Source of the DNA: a virus
Reading direction: 5' to 3' (one strand)
Virus record (IMG/VR): IMGVR_UViG_3300007541_000156
Coordinates: 1-27,329 of that record
DNA: 27,329 bases
In this document: piece by piece, positions 2,089 to 20,696 of the stretch
Position numbering within the stretch: position 1 is the first letter of the stretch
Layout of the letters: the number at the start of each line of letters is the position of its first letter
Position numbers and translations under genes: made by a program
The notes under the pieces: generated by a model
The model's input: the letters and a program-made list of their open reading frames with translations, nothing else
The model's database searches: none
Told to the model about the DNA's origin: nothing

Positions 2089-3965
2089 TGGTCGCTCAAG
2101 TAAGTAACATTCCAACAGCTGTCGACTATACGAGTCGTGATTACTACTCGTTAAGAGATGAGCTTATCGCACGAGTAAAAGCACGTGTAAATGTTGTTGA
2201 TGCTAACAGGCAATGGACGGGCGAAGACCCCGCTGATTTTGGTGTGGCCCTCATTGAGGCGTTTGCCTACATGGGTGACATTGTCAGCTATTACATCGAC
2301 CGAATTGCAAACGAAACATATCTGCCTACGGCAACCCAGCGCAAAAACATTATTAATCTAGCTAATATCTATGGATATTTGCCATCAGGCTATCGCTCAG
2401 CTGTTACAACCATTCAGTTCACCAATACAGACACCTCCGCTGTTGTGCTGCCTGCTAACACTCAGCTTTTGGCAGAGGTTATTTGTGATGATGTTGTAGA
2501 ACAGCTTATCTTTACAACTTCTGAAGAAGTCACTGTTCCTGCGCTGGTGGGAGGTGTTGCGGGAACTGCAACCGTCTCTGCTACCCATGGAGAGGACGTT
2601 TCTCTCCGTGCTGAGAACCTCTCTACTGGTGGGAACGACATTGCTGGTGAATTTTTGGGAACGTCCAGCGGTGCTCCAAACCAGATTTACACGCTTGCTG
2701 AAAACCAAGTTGTTGAGGGTTCCATTGTGGTGTACGTACAAAACGGTGATTTGTATGAGCCATGGGAGCAGGTAATTCACCTTGCAGATTATGGTCCGAG
2801 AGATGCTGTGTACTCACTACGTCTTGACGAAGATAACTTTGTTAGCGTTGTTTTTGGTGACGGTGTTTCTGGTGCTATTCCAAACATTTATGCAGGTATT
2901 AAAGCTGTGTACTCAGTTGGAGGCGGAGAAGTAGGAAACATTGCTACTGGACTTGTAACTGACTTCTTGAGCGTTCCTGGCAAGACTGAGTCTGAGGTAG
3001 CTGACATTGCAGCGTTGGTAACTCTTACAAACACCACTGTTGGTATTGGTGGTGTTGACCCAGAAAGCAACGACTCTATTAGGCAGAACGCCCCCAAACT
3101 ATTGAGCGCATTTAACAGGGCTGTTAGCCTCGCTGATTATGCCGAGCTTGCTTTGGGAGTTACAAATGCTGGAAAGGCTAAGGCTGAGGCTGAATCTCCA
3201 ACGTCTGTAACGCTTTACGTTGCACCTCAAAGAAACGTAGGAAGTCTTGATGCTTTCCCTGGCTTTAATGCCACAGGAGCAGTTGTAACTAGTGAGTGGA
3301 CAACTCTAAGAGATGATGTTCAGGAGTTTATGACTGACAAGACTCAAATTGGTGTCTCTCTAACTGTTTCTCCACCAACGTACGTACCAGTGAACGTAAG
3401 TCTGACCTACGCTACGCTGCCACAGTATGACGCAGCGGTAGTAGAACAAGAAATAAAGAACACACTATTGACAGAGTTTGATTATGCAAACCTAGACTTT
3501 GGTAGAAACATTACTCCTGAAGACATTGAGTTTGTTCTAAAACAGGTTGATGGGGTTCGTTGGGTTCAAGTGGCCTCTGTTGTAAGAGCCTCCAATCAGC
3601 CCGTAGGTATCACGTCTCTGCTTGGAGACCCTGACGAAATCTTTGTATTCCAAGAAACTGGAATTACTATTGCAGCGGCTTCTAGTGATGCGACTCTTGC
3701 CTCGCTTACAGTGCCTGGAGGCACAACTCTTAGCCCAACATTCAACAGTGGCTTCTACAGCTACAACTTGTTGAACGTAACTACTAACCAGATTACGTTG
3801 ACACCTGCAGCTACGGAAACAAACGCAAAAATTACAATTAATGGCAATGCAGTTGCTACTCCAATTGACACTCCTGCTGGTGGGGTCACAAACATTGCAA
3901 TTGTAGTTACTGCTAATGACAACAGCACAGTCAAGGTATACAGCGTCACAGTATCGAGGCCGTAG
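2088..3965 (+). CDS. Baseplate J-like protein with C-terminal cadherin-like domain
   Basis: This 625-residue protein is a gpJ/gp6-type baseplate wedge protein. The N-terminal region has the typical DYTSRDYYSLRDELI opening and an early segment ADFGVALIEAFAYMGDIVSY. The middle contains FGDGVSGAIPN, a hallmark of the Baseplate_J family. From about residue 535 a separate beta-sandwich follows. Its pattern LASLTVPGGTTLSPTF, then SYNL, and a terminal VKVYSVTVSRP is that of the bacterial cadherin-like beta-sandwich family (PF12733). Such add-on domains are often surface-exposed and may bind carbohydrate or neighbouring tail parts. The start overlaps the upstream stop (TAATG), and the next gene starts in the TAG stop. 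Confidence 0.85.
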   Translation: MVAQVSNIPTAVDYTSRDYYSLRDELIARVKARVNVVDANRQWTGEDPADFGVALIEAFAYMGDIVSYYIDRIANETYLPTATQRKNIINLANIYGYLPSGYRSAVTTIQFTNTDTSAVVLPANTQLLAEVICDDVVEQLIFTTSEEVTVPALVGGVAGTATVSATHGEDVSLRAENLSTGGNDIAGEFLGTSSGAPNQIYTLAENQVVEGSIVVYVQNGDLYEPWEQVIHLADYGPRDAVYSLRLDEDNFVSVVFGDGVSGAIPNIYAGIKAVYSVGGGEVGNIATGLVTDFLSVPGKTESEVADIAALVTLTNTTVGIGGVDPESNDSIRQNAPKLLSAFNRAVSLADYAELALGVTNAGKAKAEAESPTSVTLYVAPQRNVGSLDAFPGFNATGAVVTSEWTTLRDDVQEFMTDKTQIGVSLTVSPPTYVPVNVSLTYATLPQYDAAVVEQEIKNTLLTEFDYANLDFGRNITPEDIEFVLKQVDGVRWVQVASVVRASNQPVGITSLLGDPDEIFVFQETGITIAAASSDATLASLTVPGGTTLSPTFNSGFYSYNLLNVTTNQITLTPAATETNAKITINGNAVATPIDTPAGGVTNIAIVVTANDNSTVKVYSVTVSRP

Positions 3966-7674: not shown

Positions 7675-7693
7675 GACGTGCTATGTGCACGTC
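7675..7693 (+). promoter_or_regulatory. Inverted repeat enclosing the initiator start codon
   Basis: GACGTGC (7675-7681) and GCACGTC (7687-7693) are perfect 7-base arms around a 5-base loop that contains the ATG at 7683. The gene has no obvious Shine-Dalgarno sequence. The element could be a translational hairpin or a dyad operator for autoregulation; both are inference. Confidence 0.4.
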
Positions 7694-8702
7694 TGAAGAA
7701 AAGTTCTTTACTCCTCTCTCCGCAAGTGAGTACCGTCTTCTAGACGTTCTATGCCTGCTATCTAAAGACGGCGTTGCTACTCCAACTATGGAAGAGCTTG
7801 CTAGAAACACCCAATCCAGCGAAGAGTCTGTTCGGCGTGCGCTCCGCAAGCTTGAAGAAGTTGGGCTACTAAAAGTTGAGCGTACTAAGCGCAACTTTGG
7901 TAAGTTCAATTACAACAAGTATTTCCTACTCTCACCATCCCACAAAAATGTGGATTTACCATCCCACAAATCTGTGGAAGAGAGTGTGGAACCATCCCAC
8001 AAAAATGTGGGGTCAACACATGACCATATCTATAGTAATGATATAGATAACAATAAAGAAATAAAGACTACGTCTTTATTTATGTTCGAGCCCGAACATA
8101 AAAGGAGAACGAAGGAGATTGTTTTGAAAGGATGGCAAGATGATGACGCCGAGTTATCTGGTTTTGGCTTATTCGATGATGAAGTACCAGCTTCCAAGAA
8201 ACCAGAGAAAGTCAGTAAGCGTTCTTCTAAGACCCGCAACCTTCGTCCTCAAGAAGAGTGGACTGCTTTAGACGTTGCTGCGGAGTTTGCTTCTAAGGTG
8301 TACGCCAAGCTCCCTGGGGCTATGAACGTAGTCAACACCGTGCAGTTGCAAAAGATACTCAGCAAAAACAGGAAGCAGTTCAACCTGACTCCAATTATTG
8401 AGCTGGAAGTTATGCGATTGTTTTTAGAGGACAACTGGTTTAAAACTAGTGCAAGAAGCTACCCTCAGTATGTACAGGGACGATTCCTAAAGTTTTTCAC
8501 CAGCCATTTGTCTGAAGCTCTAAAAAATCTTGGACTACATTCTGACCTAAGCATCACCGAGGAACACGCAATGTCAGCCTCTGGTCCTGAGTTCGTGTAT
8601 GCTTCTGACGGAACGAAATTTGACAACTCGATGCCAGGGCGGTATGACTTAATGCGTTATGAGGAAAAACTCAGGAGGGCAAATGACTCAGCAGCTAAAT
8701 AG
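7683..8702 (+). CDS. Winged-helix replication initiator-like protein carrying the putative origin
   Basis: This 339-residue protein starts with a winged helix-turn-helix at about residues 10-85 (SEYRLLDVLCLLSK, then TMEELARNTQSSEESVRRAL, a recognition helix and a wing ending FNYNKYFLL). Residues about 84-155 form a low-complexity linker with three PSHK(N/S)V peptide repeats. The C-terminal domain, about residues 190-295, is helical. This order (DNA-binding head, linker, C-terminal partner-binding domain) and the DnaC-like loader directly downstream match phage replication initiators of the lambda O / DnaD-like kind. The linker coding DNA holds three iterons and an AT-rich stretch with inverted repeats. 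A role as a plain transcription regulator is possible but less likely. It overlaps the loader gene by 20 bases. Confidence 0.7.
   Translation: MCTSEEKFFTPLSASEYRLLDVLCLLSKDGVATPTMEELARNTQSSEESVRRALRKLEEVGLLKVERTKRNFGKFNYNKYFLLSPSHKNVDLPSHKSVEESVEPSHKNVGSTHDHIYSNDIDNNKEIKTTSLFMFEPEHKRRTKEIVLKGWQDDDAELSGFGLFDDEVPASKKPEKVSKRSSKTRNLRPQEEWTALDVAAEFASKVYAKLPGAMNVVNTVQLQKILSKNRKQFNLTPIIELEVMRLFLEDNWFKTSARSYPQYVQGRFLKFFTSHLSEALKNLGLHSDLSITEEHAMSASGPEFVYASDGTKFDNSMPGRYDLMRYEEKLRRANDSAAK
7934..8010 (+). repeat. Three 20-base iterons with internal dyad symmetry
   Basis: The copies are at 7934-7953, 7958-7977 and 7991-8010. Copies 1 and 3 are identical (ACCATCCCACAAAAATGTGG); copy 2 differs at two positions (AAATC instead of AAAAA-T register). 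Each contains CCACA and TGTGG arms around 4 bases, a dyad suited to a dimeric protein. Start-to-start spacings are 24 and 33 bases, both multiples of three, so the peptide repeat PSHK(N/S)V is kept in frame. A lone GTGTGGA half-like site lies at 7984-7990. Confidence 0.85.
7934..8102 (+). other. Putative replication origin inside the initiator gene
   Basis: Three iterons (7934-8010) are followed directly by an AT-rich block: in 8027-8083 only 11 of 57 bases are G or C. Three perfect inverted repeats sit in and beside that block. TATCTATA / TATAGATA is at 8027-8049, AAATAAAGAC / GTCTTTATTT at 8059-8081 with a 3-base loop, and TTTATGTTCG / CGAACATAAA at 8079-8102 with a 4-base loop. Iterons plus an adjacent easily melted stretch within the initiator gene is the arrangement of lambda ori within gene O. 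The sequence pattern is seen directly; the origin function is inferred. Confidence 0.65.
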
Positions 8703-9396
8703 CCTGCAGAGACACTGGATACTAACAGGGGGGAACATTCCAAATCGTTTTATTGGAATGAAGCCCGAAGATGTAAAGCAGCGTGTAGGAGGGTTCTCTC
8801 CAGAAATTGAGTTTTGGCTAGACGATGTTTTAGATGGCAAGGTTATAAAGTCAGTCGGAGGCATCGGAAAAACTGGTGTAGGACTTTTGTTTGATGGTGG
8901 CCCTGGGTTAGGCAAGACAACACACGCAGTTGTAACCTTGCTAGAACTTATTAGACGTCTGCCTCAAAACGAAGCAGAGGGGCGAAAAGTTTTTGGGTAT
9001 TCCGCTTTGGATTACAACCGCAGTGCTCGACCTATTTACTACATGACTTTTCCAGATTTCTTAAATAGAAAGAAGTCTATGTTCGACGCAGAGCCAGAGC
9101 AGAAGAAAGAACTTCAACTGGAAATGGACGGTTTTCATGGACGCTCTGCCCTAGACCACTTAAATGTCAGAGTGTTGGTGTTAGATGACCTTGGCAAAGA
9201 GTATGGTTCTGAATACAACACAACAGGATTTGACGAGATACTTCGGTCTCGTTACGATAAGGCTCTACCTACAATTGTTACCACGAATACTCCGAGGGAA
9301 CAGTGGGCTAGAAAATATGGAGATGCAATGGGTAGTTTCGTACATGAGGCGTTTAAACGTGTCATAATAGGGACTACGGATTTGAGGAGGAATTAA
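8683..9396 (+). CDS. DnaC/IstB-type AAA+ ATPase, helicase loader
   Basis: This 237-residue P-loop ATPase shows Walker A GGPGLGKTT at residues 72-80 and Walker B VLVLDDLGKE with D168-D169. These are typical of DnaC/IstB-type AAA+ proteins. A later TIVTTNTPREQW fits sensor 1, and a basic C-terminal helix (HEAFKRV) with the arginine finger region follows. Phage proteins of this kind load the replicative helicase. The DnaB-like gene lies about 0.7 kb downstream and the initiator-like gene overlaps upstream. I chose ATG 8683 because AGGAGG (8673-8678) sits five bases before it; an in-frame ATG at 8659 lacks such a site. Confidence 0.8.
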   Translation: MTQQLNSLQRHWILTGGNIPNRFIGMKPEDVKQRVGGFSPEIEFWLDDVLDGKVIKSVGGIGKTGVGLLFDGGPGLGKTTHAVVTLLELIRRLPQNEAEGRKVFGYSALDYNRSARPIYYMTFPDFLNRKKSMFDAEPEQKKELQLEMDGFHGRSALDHLNVRVLVLDDLGKEYGSEYNTTGFDEILRSRYDKALPTIVTTNTPREQWARKYGDAMGSFVHEAFKRVIIGTTDLRRN

Positions 9397-9704
9397 TGAA
9401 AGAGTTTACTGTGGAGTCAGACTGGAGAACAGTTCAGCTATTTTTGACCAAAGAGTATGTAGCAGAAGTTGAGGTTAACTCTGCTGACAATAGAGAGGTC
9501 CGCTGCAACTGCAAGGGCTACCTAAACTTCAGTCGATGCAATCACGTAAAGTATGTCAAGAAGCACATGCAGGGCAACAACGGTCACTACACAATTAAGA
9601 TTCCACAAGAAGTTGACGAAGACTTGGCTGAGATGGCCATGACAGATTCTGAAATGTTTCGTCAGTTCATTATCGACTACGCAAAGGTAGAGGTCTTAGA
9701 TTGA
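9396..9704 (+). CDS. Small SWIM zinc-finger protein
   Basis: This 102-residue protein carries the SWIM pattern CxC...CxH: C37 and C39 in RCNCKGYLNF, then C48 and H50 in SRCNHVKYVKKHM. SWIM fingers bind zinc and usually contact DNA or protein; in host proteins they occur with SNF2 helicases and recombination factors. The C-terminal 40 residues form an acidic helix-rich tail. AGGAGG stands before the ATG, which overlaps the loader stop codon (TAATG). Its place between the helicase loader and the DnaB-like helicase gene, with a SNF2-type helicase further on, suggests a replication accessory role. The exact function is unknown. Confidence 0.65.
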   Translation: MKEFTVESDWRTVQLFLTKEYVAEVEVNSADNREVRCNCKGYLNFSRCNHVKYVKKHMQGNNGHYTIKIPQEVDEDLAEMAMTDSEMFRQFIIDYAKVEVLD

Positions 9705-10128: not shown

Positions 10129-11388
10129 GTGGCACACGACAACGAGTACAGGCTCGTAAGCAAGGTCATTGCTGACCGTGTAATTATCCCTGTCATTGAG
10201 CGTGGCATTCAAGACAGCTGGATTGTAGACGATGAGCTTCGTCGTGTATGGAAGTTTGTGCGTGAGCACTACGCCTCGTACCGTGAGGTTCCGACAGTTG
10301 TCGCAGTCACCGATAATTTTCCTAACTTCAAGTGTTTAAAAGTTGAAGACACTCTTGAATACCTACTTGACAAGATGGTTGAGTTTCGGAGACGAACACT
10401 CACTCGCAATGGTCTTGAACTTGTTATCGAAAAAATCGAAAAGAATGACCACGAGTCTGCTCTAAACGAAATGAGCAAGACCATAACCGTGGTCAACACC
10501 CAAGGAGTCATTGGTACTACTCACGTAGACTTGACTAAAGACCCTGACATTCGATTTCATGAATACGAGAGCTTGCAGAACCACGAACTGCTGGGAGTTC
10601 CAACGGGCTTTGAAAAGATAGATGAAGCCACCGCAGGGTTACAAGGTGGTCAGCTAATCACTGTTATTGCTCCTCCAAAAACTGGTAAATCTCAAATCGC
10701 CTTGAAGATGGCAATAAACGTACATCAAGCAGGCAAGATTCCCATGTTTCAGTCTTTTGAGATGAGCAACCGTGAGCAGTCACAGCGTCACGATGCGATA
10801 CGAGCGCACATCTCCAGTGCCCGTCTTCGAAGAGGAAAGCTAAACGCTACCGAAGAACAGCGGTACAGCGATTTACTAGAAACCATGAAAGACGAGCATC
10901 CGTTTCACCTAGTAGATGCTGTCAACGGATTAACTATTGATTCTTTAGTTGCCAAAGGCGAGCAGCTGAACCCCGACATCATGTTTGTCGATGGTGTATA
11001 CCTGATGCTTGACCAAGTAACTGGAGAGTCAAATACTCCGCAAGCACTAACGAACATTACCCGTGGGCTAAAGAGAGTAGCTCAAAAACTAGACATTCCT
11101 ATCGTAATTACAACTCAGACCTTGCTCTGGAAAATGCGTGGGGGCAAAGTTACTGCAGACTCAATCGGTTACTCATCTTCGTTCTTCCAAGATTCAGATG
11201 TTATTTTGGGTCTTGAACCGATTGAAGACGACGAAGAGTTGCGACTTCTAAAGATTGTTCAATCTAGGAATTGCCCACCTTCCGAAACTACTATTACTTG
11301 GAAGTGGGACACGGGCTGCTTCCACGATGAAATTGAAGACGAAAACTGCACGTACTGCACTCCGTGGGGAGGGTCTACCTTTGTATAA
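10129..11388 (+). CDS. dnaB: DnaB-type replicative helicase
   Basis: This 419-residue protein has a DnaB-like C-terminal RecA-fold helicase domain. It shows Walker A PPKTGKS with K187, the following MFQSFEMS strand (the usual SLEM region), Walker B IMFVDGVYLM with D288, and IPIVITTQ before the final motifs. The N-terminal 130 residues are helical, as in the DnaB N-domain. The protein is a little shorter than bacterial DnaB. The GTG start has a strong AGGAGGG eight bases upstream. It would unwind DNA at the fork together with the loader (8683-9396) and the primase whose start overlaps its stop. The C-terminal DENCTYC tail is an oddity that may bind metal weakly. Confidence 0.85.
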   Translation: MAHDNEYRLVSKVIADRVIIPVIERGIQDSWIVDDELRRVWKFVREHYASYREVPTVVAVTDNFPNFKCLKVEDTLEYLLDKMVEFRRRTLTRNGLELVIEKIEKNDHESALNEMSKTITVVNTQGVIGTTHVDLTKDPDIRFHEYESLQNHELLGVPTGFEKIDEATAGLQGGQLITVIAPPKTGKSQIALKMAINVHQAGKIPMFQSFEMSNREQSQRHDAIRAHISSARLRRGKLNATEEQRYSDLLETMKDEHPFHLVDAVNGLTIDSLVAKGEQLNPDIMFVDGVYLMLDQVTGESNTPQALTNITRGLKRVAQKLDIPIVITTQTLLWKMRGGKVTADSIGYSSSFFQDSDVILGLEPIEDDEELRLLKIVQSRNCPPSETTITWKWDTGCFHDEIEDENCTYCTPWGGSTFV

Positions 11389-12379
11389 CATCGAGAGAGT
11401 TCTTGAAGCTTTAGACATTGACTACACAGAGAGGGGCGACAACGCTCAAGCTCTATGCCCAATGCACGAGAGAATCACAGGAAACGTAGACCACAACCCA
11501 TCGTGGTACATCCACCTAGAGACTGGGCAACACATTTGTTTTTCTTGTGGCTATAAAGGGGGTATTCTACAGCTGGTCTGTGACATTAAAGAGTTTTATG
11601 TACAACTTTGGCAAACCACAGAATACGACTACAACTCTGCTCGTTCTTGGATTGCTGGAGCAGCTGAAATAACGATTGAAGAATTAAAAGAAAAGCTAAC
11701 CAAACTGCCAGAGTATGTTGCTCCCCCTCCACGGCCTATTGGAATGTCGGAAGCTCGTCTGGCAATTTATACAGAGCCAACAGACGAAGCACTCGCTGCT
11801 CGCAACATAACTAGAGAGGCAGCAGAGCACTACGGAGTTCTGTGGAACAAAAATACGCACACATGGATACTCCCTTTGCGAGAACCCGACACTAACAAGT
11901 TGATGGGGTGGCAAGAAAAAGGCACGGTAGATAGAACCTTTAACAATCGTCCAATGGGCCTACAAAAATCTAAAACACTATTTGGTGTGCAAGTCCAGCG
12001 TGAAGAAGGGGCCATAGTAGTGGAGTCACCCCTAGATTGCTTGCGCATGCACTCTGCGGGGTACACAGGGGCTGTTGCTACCTGTGGAGCTGTTATAAGT
12101 GAGGCTCAAGCAAAACTTTTGCGACGTTCTGATAAAATAGTTGCAGCCTTTGACAACCCCAACCTTGACACTGCTGGAAGAAAAGCATCTGAGCAGTTAC
12201 GCACATTTGCAAGGAAATATGGGTTAAATTTGTTCTTCTTCAACTATGGAGACACAACCAAGAAGGACCCAGGCGAAATGACTGACGAAGAAATTCGTTG
12301 GGGGATTTTGAACGCCAAGTCCGCAATTCTGGGGGAGTCAGCTTATGTTTCTAGGAACGCTGAAACCATATCAGGTTGA
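11381..12379 (+). CDS. DnaG-type primase with CHC2 zinc finger and Toprim domain
   Basis: This 332-residue protein has a CHC2-type zinc finger near its N-terminus (C26, H29, C53, C56) and a Toprim domain after residue 205. The Toprim Glu is in VVESPLD (E215), and the acidic pair is in FDNPNLDTAGRKA (D258 and D263), where the usual D-x-D spacing is widened. It lacks a helicase-binding C-terminal domain. The frame is open further upstream to an ATG at 11255. However, that would lie 134 bases inside the helicase gene, while TTG 11381 has GGGGAGGG eight bases before it and gives an 8-base overlap. That start also places the zinc finger at the normal distance. It would lay primers for the family-A polymerase. 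Confidence 0.8.
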   Translation: MYNIERVLEALDIDYTERGDNAQALCPMHERITGNVDHNPSWYIHLETGQHICFSCGYKGGILQLVCDIKEFYVQLWQTTEYDYNSARSWIAGAAEITIEELKEKLTKLPEYVAPPPRPIGMSEARLAIYTEPTDEALAARNITREAAEHYGVLWNKNTHTWILPLREPDTNKLMGWQEKGTVDRTFNNRPMGLQKSKTLFGVQVQREEGAIVVESPLDCLRMHSAGYTGAVATCGAVISEAQAKLLRRSDKIVAAFDNPNLDTAGRKASEQLRTFARKYGLNLFFFNYGDTTKKDPGEMTDEEIRWGILNAKSAILGESAYVSRNAETISG

Positions 12380-20048: not shown

Positions 20049-20365
20049 TGAAATCTGAAGGACAGAAGCACTCTCGAAAGCACGAGAACCGTCTATCAAA
20101 GGTGATAGGCGGCTCCCGTACTGCAGCATCAGGGGCATTTTGGTCACGTAAGGGAGATGTGCGTTCTGAAGAGTTGTTGGTTGAGCATAAGTGGACTGGA
20201 AAAAAATCCAAGACCATTCAATCGACAGAGCTAAAGAAGATAACAACTGAAGCTATCTTAGACGGCAGAGTGCCAGTGTTCGGACTTCATTTGGATGGGG
20301 AGAATTACGTGATTCTTCTAGAAACCGACCTAATGGAGTTAGTGCACAAGGCATATGATAAATGA
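20048..20365 (+). CDS. PD-(D/E)XK nuclease-like protein, possible Holliday junction resolvase
   Basis: This 105-residue protein has the layout of small PD-(D/E)XK nucleases. ASGAFWSRKGDV includes D37, and LLVEHKW gives the E-x-K pair (E46, K48), followed by the TELKKITTEA helix. The SGA...KGD plus VEHK pattern is common in a phage nuclease family that cuts branched or recombining DNA, so a resolvase-like role is the best guess. The GTG start at 20048 shares its G with the TAG stop upstream. It lies next to recA and the Cas4-like gene, and the WhiB gene starts 11 bases before its end. Specificity cannot be told from the sequence. Confidence 0.65.
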   Translation: MKSEGQKHSRKHENRLSKVIGGSRTAASGAFWSRKGDVRSEELLVEHKWTGKKSKTIQSTELKKITTEAILDGRVPVFGLHLDGENYVILLETDLMELVHKAYDK

Positions 20366-20696
20366 AGAAAGATTAGACCATTCTTGGAGAGAACGGGCAA
20401 GGTGCCAAGGTGCTGATACAGAGATTTTCTATCCCCCTAGGGATAAAGAACGGTACAGCGAAATTGCTGCAAAAGCAAAAGAGTACTGTAATGGTGCTAA
20501 GGGCACCTCTCCCTGTCCAGTTCGTGCTGAATGTTTTTGGGATGCCATCGTTACAGATGAGCAACATGGCATCTGGGGCGGCATGTCTCATCGGGAACGG
20601 AATGCTTTCATTAGAAAATGGCAGAAGAAGTACCAAGGAAAACTAACTCTTAAAGAATACGTATACCAAGAACGAGGAGGAACCAGTTGGCAGTAA
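20355..20696 (+). CDS. whiB: WhiB-family Fe-S transcription regulator
   Basis: This 113-residue protein is a WhiB-like regulator. The cluster cysteines are C17 (RARC), C45, C54 (PCPVRAEC) and C60. The beta turn HGIWGGMSHRERN follows, then a basic helix (FIRKWQKKYQ). WhiB proteins bind a [4Fe-4S] cluster, pair with the host primary sigma factor and control genes; phage copies such as TM4 WhiB can repress host whiB genes. Oddly, C45 and C54 are separated by eight residues, whereas host WhiB proteins usually have two. Its presence indicates an actinobacterial host. The ATG overlaps the nuclease gene, and the next gene starts 10 bases inside its end. Confidence 0.85.
   Translation: MINEERLDHSWRERARCQGADTEIFYPPRDKERYSEIAAKAKEYCNGAKGTSPCPVRAECFWDAIVTDEQHGIWGGMSHRERNAFIRKWQKKYQGKLTLKEYVYQERGGTSWQ

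Follow-up and report, generated by a model that had tools for sequence, protein, structure and literature searches.

In phage lambda the origin is embedded midway along gene O and is made up of an AT-rich tract and four iterons that are themselves inverted repeats (PMC7466680, PMC6022878); its unwinding requires the iterons, the AT tract, and supercoiling (PMC7466680). A comparable arrangement is found in plasmids of the RepA_N type, such as pSK41, in which an N-terminal winged helix binds repeats located centrally in its own gene and the initiator possesses an origin-encoded linker and a helical C-terminal domain; the chimeric initiator of pPR9 carries the HTH_36 domain (pfam13730) (PMC5703833). 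The literature cited here leaves unsettled how the opened DNA is handed over to the helicase or primase, and what role is played by the palindrome beside the AT-rich tract of lambda. The locus described below appears to be an embedded origin of this kind, belonging to a large family of environmental phages and lying beside two hairpins conserved in shape.

The window, i.e., the whole stretch of DNA analyzed (positions 1 to 27,329 of IMG/VR record IMGVR_UViG_3300007541_000156), is a 27-kb piece of tailed-phage DNA, its left part carrying baseplate genes and its right part replication genes, as judged from Pfam and PHROG matches. The initiator gene (7683..8702, plus strand) codes for an O-like winged-helix protein of 339 amino acids (aa). 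Its end is overlapped by the start, at 8683, of a gene for a DnaC-like helicase loader (8683..9396, plus strand; PHROG 50, E 3.2e-24; IstB_IS21, PF01695), which agrees with the placing of the loader directly downstream in an earlier, sequence-only reading of this DNA. Genes for a DnaB-like replicative helicase (10129..11388; PF03796, E 1.5e-28; PHROG 19) and a DnaG-type primase with a zinc ribbon and a Toprim domain (11315..12379; Pfam and PHROG matches) follow on the same strand. Positions 9396-9704 encode a protein of 102 aa whose CxC...CxH pattern recalls a SWIM-type zinc finger; the protein is kept beside the loader in relatives and has no Pfam match. Among cultured phages, the baseplate J and loader proteins point to Streptomyces phages, e.g., BRock and LuckySocke (30-37%), and a WhiB-like gene (PF02467) is present at 20355-20696; taken with the likeness of the baseplate to that of Streptomyces phages, the latter suggests that the host is an actinobacterium. 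The genes upstream of the loader in the BRock/LuckySocke-type phages do not resemble the window initiator. A comparison of this protein with cultured phages (INPHARED) returned only a 24% match over a stretch of Brevibacillus phage Emery, none of the INPHARED records with lambda O were matched by it, and no relatives were found in bacterial genome contigs.

The initiator matches HTH_36 (PF13730; 28.0 bits versus a cut-off of 25) and PHROG 678, "replication initiation O-like" (E 1.7e-11), and the matches to the O-like PHROG profiles fall mainly on its winged helix and linker. AlphaFold, supplied with a 40-row alignment, predicts an ordered winged helix (approximately 7683-7940), a disordered linker with a pLDDT below 50 (residues 87-164, i.e., 7941-8174), and an ordered, helical C-terminal domain (8175-8699), all on the plus strand. 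The repeats are coded in exactly that linker, where they had been placed previously. The winged helix aligns with many other winged helices, including the plasmid initiator chains 4pt7, 4pql, and 5kbj (Z 8.8-10.1), and the fold search of the initiator gave little beyond "winged helix." With its centrally placed putative origin, N-terminal winged helix, origin-encoded linker, and helical C-terminal domain, the window initiator is like those of the RepA_N plasmids, and its winged helix is of the HTH_36 type present in the pPR9 initiator (PMC5703833). It differs from them in having no RepA_N family match (PF06970 was absent from the 21 Pfam families listed for it at E up to 0.1) and in being part of a phage that encodes a DnaC-like loader and a DnaB-like helicase itself.

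Relatives were drawn from the IMG/VR contigs with the initiator as the query (3 close contigs), with the loader (18), and with a profile built from ten initiators (80). About 80 distinct initiator open frames were extracted, from which 49 representatives with less than 85% identity were retained; several of the contigs are 91-95 kb in length. The five nearest genes referred to below are those of the window, L001, L002, L005, and L029.

Three 20-bp iterons, each with a CCACA-N4-TGTGG dyad, lie on the plus strand of the initiator gene at 7934..7953, 7958..7977, and 7991..8010. Iteron 1, with the dyad CCCACA-AAAA-TGTGG, is conserved in L001, L002, L005, and L029; repeat comparison showed iteron 2 to be 90% identical and iteron 3 identical to it, in agreement with the original description of three dyads, two of them the same. 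Their spacing of 24 and 33 is in multiples of three, and the protein accordingly contains in-frame SHKNV repeats, as had also been pointed out. Directly 3' of the last iteron is a TCAACA box (8013..8018, plus strand) recognized by family comparison: almost every member of the main clade has TCAACA or TCCACA adjoining its last iteron, often as TCAACAGCTG. The sequence-only reading had named loss of the iterons at synonymous positions in relatives as a refutation; these positions are instead largely kept, the same-codon rate at identical residues of the five nearest genes being 0.88 in the iterons and box versus 0.42 in the winged helix and 0.51 in the C-terminal part.

Farther out in the family, the iterons fall into the classes CCACA/TGTGG, GTTTCA/TGAAACA, TTGGCA or CTGGCA, and CCTC/GAGGCA. 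The type of the recognition helix matched the iteron class in 30/30 representatives of three classes (for L001 and L002, the final iteron was given its class by eye): E-[ST]-x-R-R is paired with TGTGG (n = 10), R-T-T-x-[WFY]-R with TGAAACA (n = 13), and R-E-[ST]-x-R with GGCA (n = 7). In a tree built only from the C-terminal part, and hence without the recognition helix, helix type and iteron class underwent 7 changes each, and the independent pairs on well-supported branches all went in the same direction, their number being too small for a significant sign test. Since helix type and iteron class change together, comparative evidence supports the N-terminal winged helix as the reader of the iterons, the role for which it had been proposed.

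The box is followed by a TpA-rich tract (8019..8058, plus strand), delimited by synonymous codon choice, which we regard as a putative unwinding element (DUE). It overlaps the AT-rich block reported earlier, which does contain only 11 G or C in 57 nucleotides (nt) from 8026 and is the lowest-GC 57-mer of the whole window. Across the family, the gap between the TCAACA/TCCACA box and the hairpin described below as hairpin A measures 34-76 nt (median, 49) and is 68% AT, versus a gene mean of 53%. Codon usage in the tract departs strongly from that in the rest of the same genes: AGT makes up 75% versus 11% of Ser codons, ATA 65% versus 11% of Ile, TTA 61% versus 10% of Leu, and GCT 94% versus 36% of Ala. 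TpA steps recur at successive codon boundaries, with 103 phased pairs compared to 43.1 +/- 6.4 under an AT3-matched synonymous null, and phased TpA density is 6.29 per 100 nt in the tract and 0.14 in the remaining gene. Codon choice in the tract is thus under selection for TpA steps, and since no step stacks more weakly than TpA, the tract fits an unwinding element. In one relative (L061:2487-3530), ten consecutive TA-N triplets (TAGTAATAATAGTAATAGTAATAGTAGTAA) come right after TCAACAGC, resembling the DnaA-trio of bacterial oriC. A DnaA-trio was considered for the tract and rejected: the excess of TAG/TAA is real, but the third base of the phased TA-N is about equally A, C, or G. Because that base is unrestricted across the family, we read the tract as TpA steps.

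Three successive perfect inverted repeats had been reported after the iterons. All three are present, and the last two are kept in the family, but the first, a stem-loop of 8 bp with a loop of 7 found by inverted-repeat search (8027-8049, plus strand, within the TpA tract), is not retained in relatives and folds no better than chance (z = -1.9; 13/200 shuffles as good). The second, hairpin A, immediately follows the tract (8059..8081, plus strand) and reads AAATAAAGAC-TAC-GTCTTTATTT, with a stem of 10 bp and a loop of 3; on the complementary strand the loop is C-GTA-G. It was identified by inverted repeats, covariation, and folding. Its folding beats all 200 shuffles (z = -8.7), a perfect 10-bp stem arose anywhere in the initiator gene in 2/400 codon shuffles, and the same-codon rate over it in the five nearest genes is 1.00. 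Hairpin A is present in 34/49 nonredundant representatives at the same site and in the same reading frame, with perfect Watson-Crick stems of 8-11 bp, mostly 10. The loop is TTC in 20 and TAC in 14 of them, always preceded by AC and followed by GT, so that its complement in all 34 is C-GAA-G or C-GTA-G, i.e., C-GNA-G. The hairpin is missing from the other 15 representatives, eight of which fall in one distant clade, and is therefore not indispensable to every member.

The letters of the hairpin A stem vary widely, whereas their pairing does not: among the 26 distinct sequences, 97.7% of cells pair and 57 are changed on both sides. The covariation score is 0.582, against 0.141 +/- 0.023 for shuffles and at most 0.122 for slid controls, in rows that were preselected for having a stem. 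A scan with the DNA pattern TCAACAGCTG-N38-68-ACTWCGT, which is free of any stem or protein requirement, returned stems that were bimodal in length, either 2-5 bp (103 matches) or 9-11 bp (16 matches), with none between; 15 of the 16 long-stem matches are in the initiator family of the window. A 9-bp TAC-loop hairpin, GACCTCGAC-TAC-GTCGAGGTC, was also seen behind TCAACAGCTG in L131 near 3760-3830; it does not belong to the initiator family, lies in no long open reading frame, and is probably due to chance. Synonymous draws given each peptide produced an equally long stem at the site of hairpin A with P values of 5e-5 to 6.5e-4 per gene, the genes not being independent, and on the tree its pairs 3 to 10 need about 51 pair-type changes in total.

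Hairpin B, ATGTTCG-AGCC-CGAACAT (8082..8099, plus strand; 7 bp), was found by inverted repeats and folding and is the shortened form of the third repeat, which at full length spans 8079-8102, with 10 bp and a loop of 4. The repeats at 8059-8081 and 8079-8102 share 3 nt, and both can form only if the latter shrinks to 8082-8099; its full length needs fraying of hairpin A. This third stem folds better than all 200 shuffles (z = -10.7). A second hairpin of 5-8 bp, richer in GC, is located 0-5 nt past hairpin A in nearly all of the 34 representatives. Given the peptide, it is weak on its own in many genes, with a probability of about 0.25 in several, and strong in others, with one below 0.01; summed over genes it is clearly below chance, in a sum uncorrected for kinship. 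Conserved and covarying, the twin hairpin is a genuine property of a large family of phages. A second, distant clade of initiators (L008, L012, L014, L016, L094, L096, L103, L108, and L120) is without hairpin A and retains CCATTAGTACCTAATAG, about 25 nt after which another covarying hairpin is found, e.g., TGAAACC-GAA-GGTTTCA or TTGAATCC-AAAG-GGATTCAA; in this clade an extra gene separates the initiator from the loader. Another phage contig (G003; L261:9410-9436, minus strand of the initiator orientation) carries a perfect 12-bp inverted repeat, AAGTTATCCACAGGCTGTGGATAACTT, consisting of two head-to-head DnaA-box-like sequences and followed by a 13-bp GC-rich hairpin.

The stem-loops had been said to go beyond the lambda layout, and this was true in part. 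In the lambda record itself, ATTCGTCAGA-GAAT-TCTGGCGAAT, with one mispair in ten, lies some 40 bp beyond iteron 4 (39158-39181), and O genes of P22-like, Erwinia, and Proteus phages have inverted repeats of the CCCC...GGGG type after the AT-rich part. Lambda-type O genes and the window family thus share dyad iterons, a box (the short motif ACACAAAAGA after the last iteron in the lambdoids, TCAACA in the window family), an AT-rich tract, and a palindrome, in this order midway along the initiator gene, which is followed by the loader or helicase gene. The sequences themselves differ: in the INPHARED comparison the window initiator gave no sequence match to lambda O, and neither the iterons, nor the box, nor the tract is alike. 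The palindrome of lambda is imperfect and has another loop, whereas the stem of the window family is perfect, covaries in dozens of phages around AC-T[AT]C-GT, and is followed at once by a second hairpin, unlike in lambda. Twin hairpins are likewise not described for RepA_N in the excerpt of PMC5703833 used here. The fold of lambda P is, to our knowledge, unrelated to that of the DnaC-like loader, and the position of the loader is a functional parallel. Taken on the sequence comparison, which supports the earlier proposal of an origin within the initiator gene, the stretch near 8 kb is very probably the phage replication origin, set in the codons for the linker of the initiator, and it is very likely an embedded iteron origin of the lambda-O/RepA_N-like kind. 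GC skew in four relatives of 91-94 kb is weak, tracks gene direction, and does not switch at the initiator.

How the hairpins act can be approached through their loop. In phage N4, a C-GNA-G loop governs the supercoil-driven extrusion of promoter hairpins at physiological supercoiling, and the letters of the stem are free as long as they pair (PMC4496689). The loop and the freedom of the stem letters recur in hairpin A. The N4 hairpins, however, are promoters with short stems at three early sites, whereas hairpin A is a single 10-bp site inside the initiator gene, and no evidence of a virion polymerase was found in the window phage, unlike in N4. Hairpin A occurs once per genome in the four 91-94 kb relatives, which argues against an N4-like promoter class, and this class was rejected. 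Nicking, another function suggested for the stem-loops at the outset, was dropped, as the genes examined included no HUH nickase. We think it fairly likely that the hairpins act as DNA structures within the origin. That they act in the mRNA, in place of an origin or in addition to one, by pausing translation, guiding RNA processing, or controlling the loader gene, is unlikely in our estimation: both strands fold equally well on paper, and L055 has a G-T in place of one outer pair of hairpin A, but the site is always just past the iterons and TpA tract rather than at the start or end of a gene. We know of no extra-stable RNA loop of the UAC or UUC type closed by C-G, and neither an Rfam match nor a terminator-like tail was found at hairpin A or B, while the complement of the loop is the C-GNA-G of the DNA rule (PMC4496689); for these reasons DNA structure is favored over RNA. 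The general lack of G-T pairs was not used as an argument for DNA, since the stems were found by strict pairing. As DNA folding energies are alike on the two strands, the assignment of the structure to the complementary strand derives solely from the loop rule. A plasmid parallel is offered by RSF1010, where iterons lie near the short stem-loops ssiA and ssiB, which are exposed by helicase unwinding and read by the plasmid primase RepB' (PMC4234260). The DnaG-type primase of the phage, which encodes its own loader and helicase as well, might in the same way begin leading-strand synthesis at the hairpins. We consider this rather unlikely, because the reader in RSF1010 is a dedicated plasmid primase (PMC4234260) and that of the phage is DnaG-type by family match, and because the two hairpins are in tandem within the gene, facing the same way and not opposite strands.

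Three further explanations were weighed. Perfect hairpins can arise and be repaired through template switching (PMC8794818), and an origin, often single-stranded, is a likely place for it, so that the covarying stems might be a functionless by-product of mutation; this appears quite improbable, as it leaves unexplained the invariant AC-T[AT]C-GT core, the stems of exactly 10 bp in most representatives and their bimodal lengths, and a frame and site fixed across deep branches. Perfect symmetry would also suit a double-stranded binding site for a dimeric protein, dimeric winged helices being common, yet only the AC...GT beside the loop is invariant and the outer half-sites vary freely while staying symmetric, which is unlike a sequence-specific operator and makes such a site very improbable. 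That the DNA pattern merely follows from a feature of the peptide (SHKNV and K/N-T-T/S motifs) is barely credible and already contradicted: the repeats do keep the reading frame, and there is conservation of the residues coded by the hairpin loop, but the linker is predicted to be disordered, synonymous sites are frozen exactly at the iterons and hairpin A, and the stem is very unlikely given the peptide.

With the hairpins taken as DNA structures, the origin may be envisaged to work as follows. Dimers of the N-terminal winged helix would bind the dyad iterons, a step supported by the joint change of helix and iteron, and the binding would strain and melt the adjoining TpA-rich tract (8019-8058), to which the codon bias points. 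The two hairpins at the far edge of the tract, whose pairing is attested by covariation, would then fold on separated or supercoiled strands, the C-GNA-G loop on the complementary strand of hairpin A presumably letting so small a hairpin extrude. Finally, the folded strand could keep the bubble open and mark the point at which the primase, or else the DnaB-like helicase with its DnaC-like loader, engages. We judge the explanation as a whole, from iteron binding through tract melting and hairpin folding to replisome entry, to be likely. Within it, the specific notion that the hairpins serve as an entry or priming site for helicase or primase is possible, although we would place it somewhat short of even. 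More tentative still is the idea of a distinct class of embedded phage origin, in which selection maintains a one-turn hairpin with an extrusion-prone C-GNA-G loop plus a second hairpin at the edge of the unwinding tract, and a DNA structure, not a sequence, tells the replisome on which strand and where to load; its corollary is that the lambda palindrome would be the same device in a decayed or diverged form.

The twin hairpin sets this probable origin apart as a variant of the embedded iteron origins and not just another member of them. The family amounts to an experiment in natural mutagenesis, in which the stem letters vary over dozens of phages while pairing, loop rule, site, and frame remain constant; because the stems are interchangeable, a role as DNA structure can be tested by swapping them. 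The link between helix type and iteron class, in turn, allows the specificity of an origin in these phages to be predicted from its sequence.
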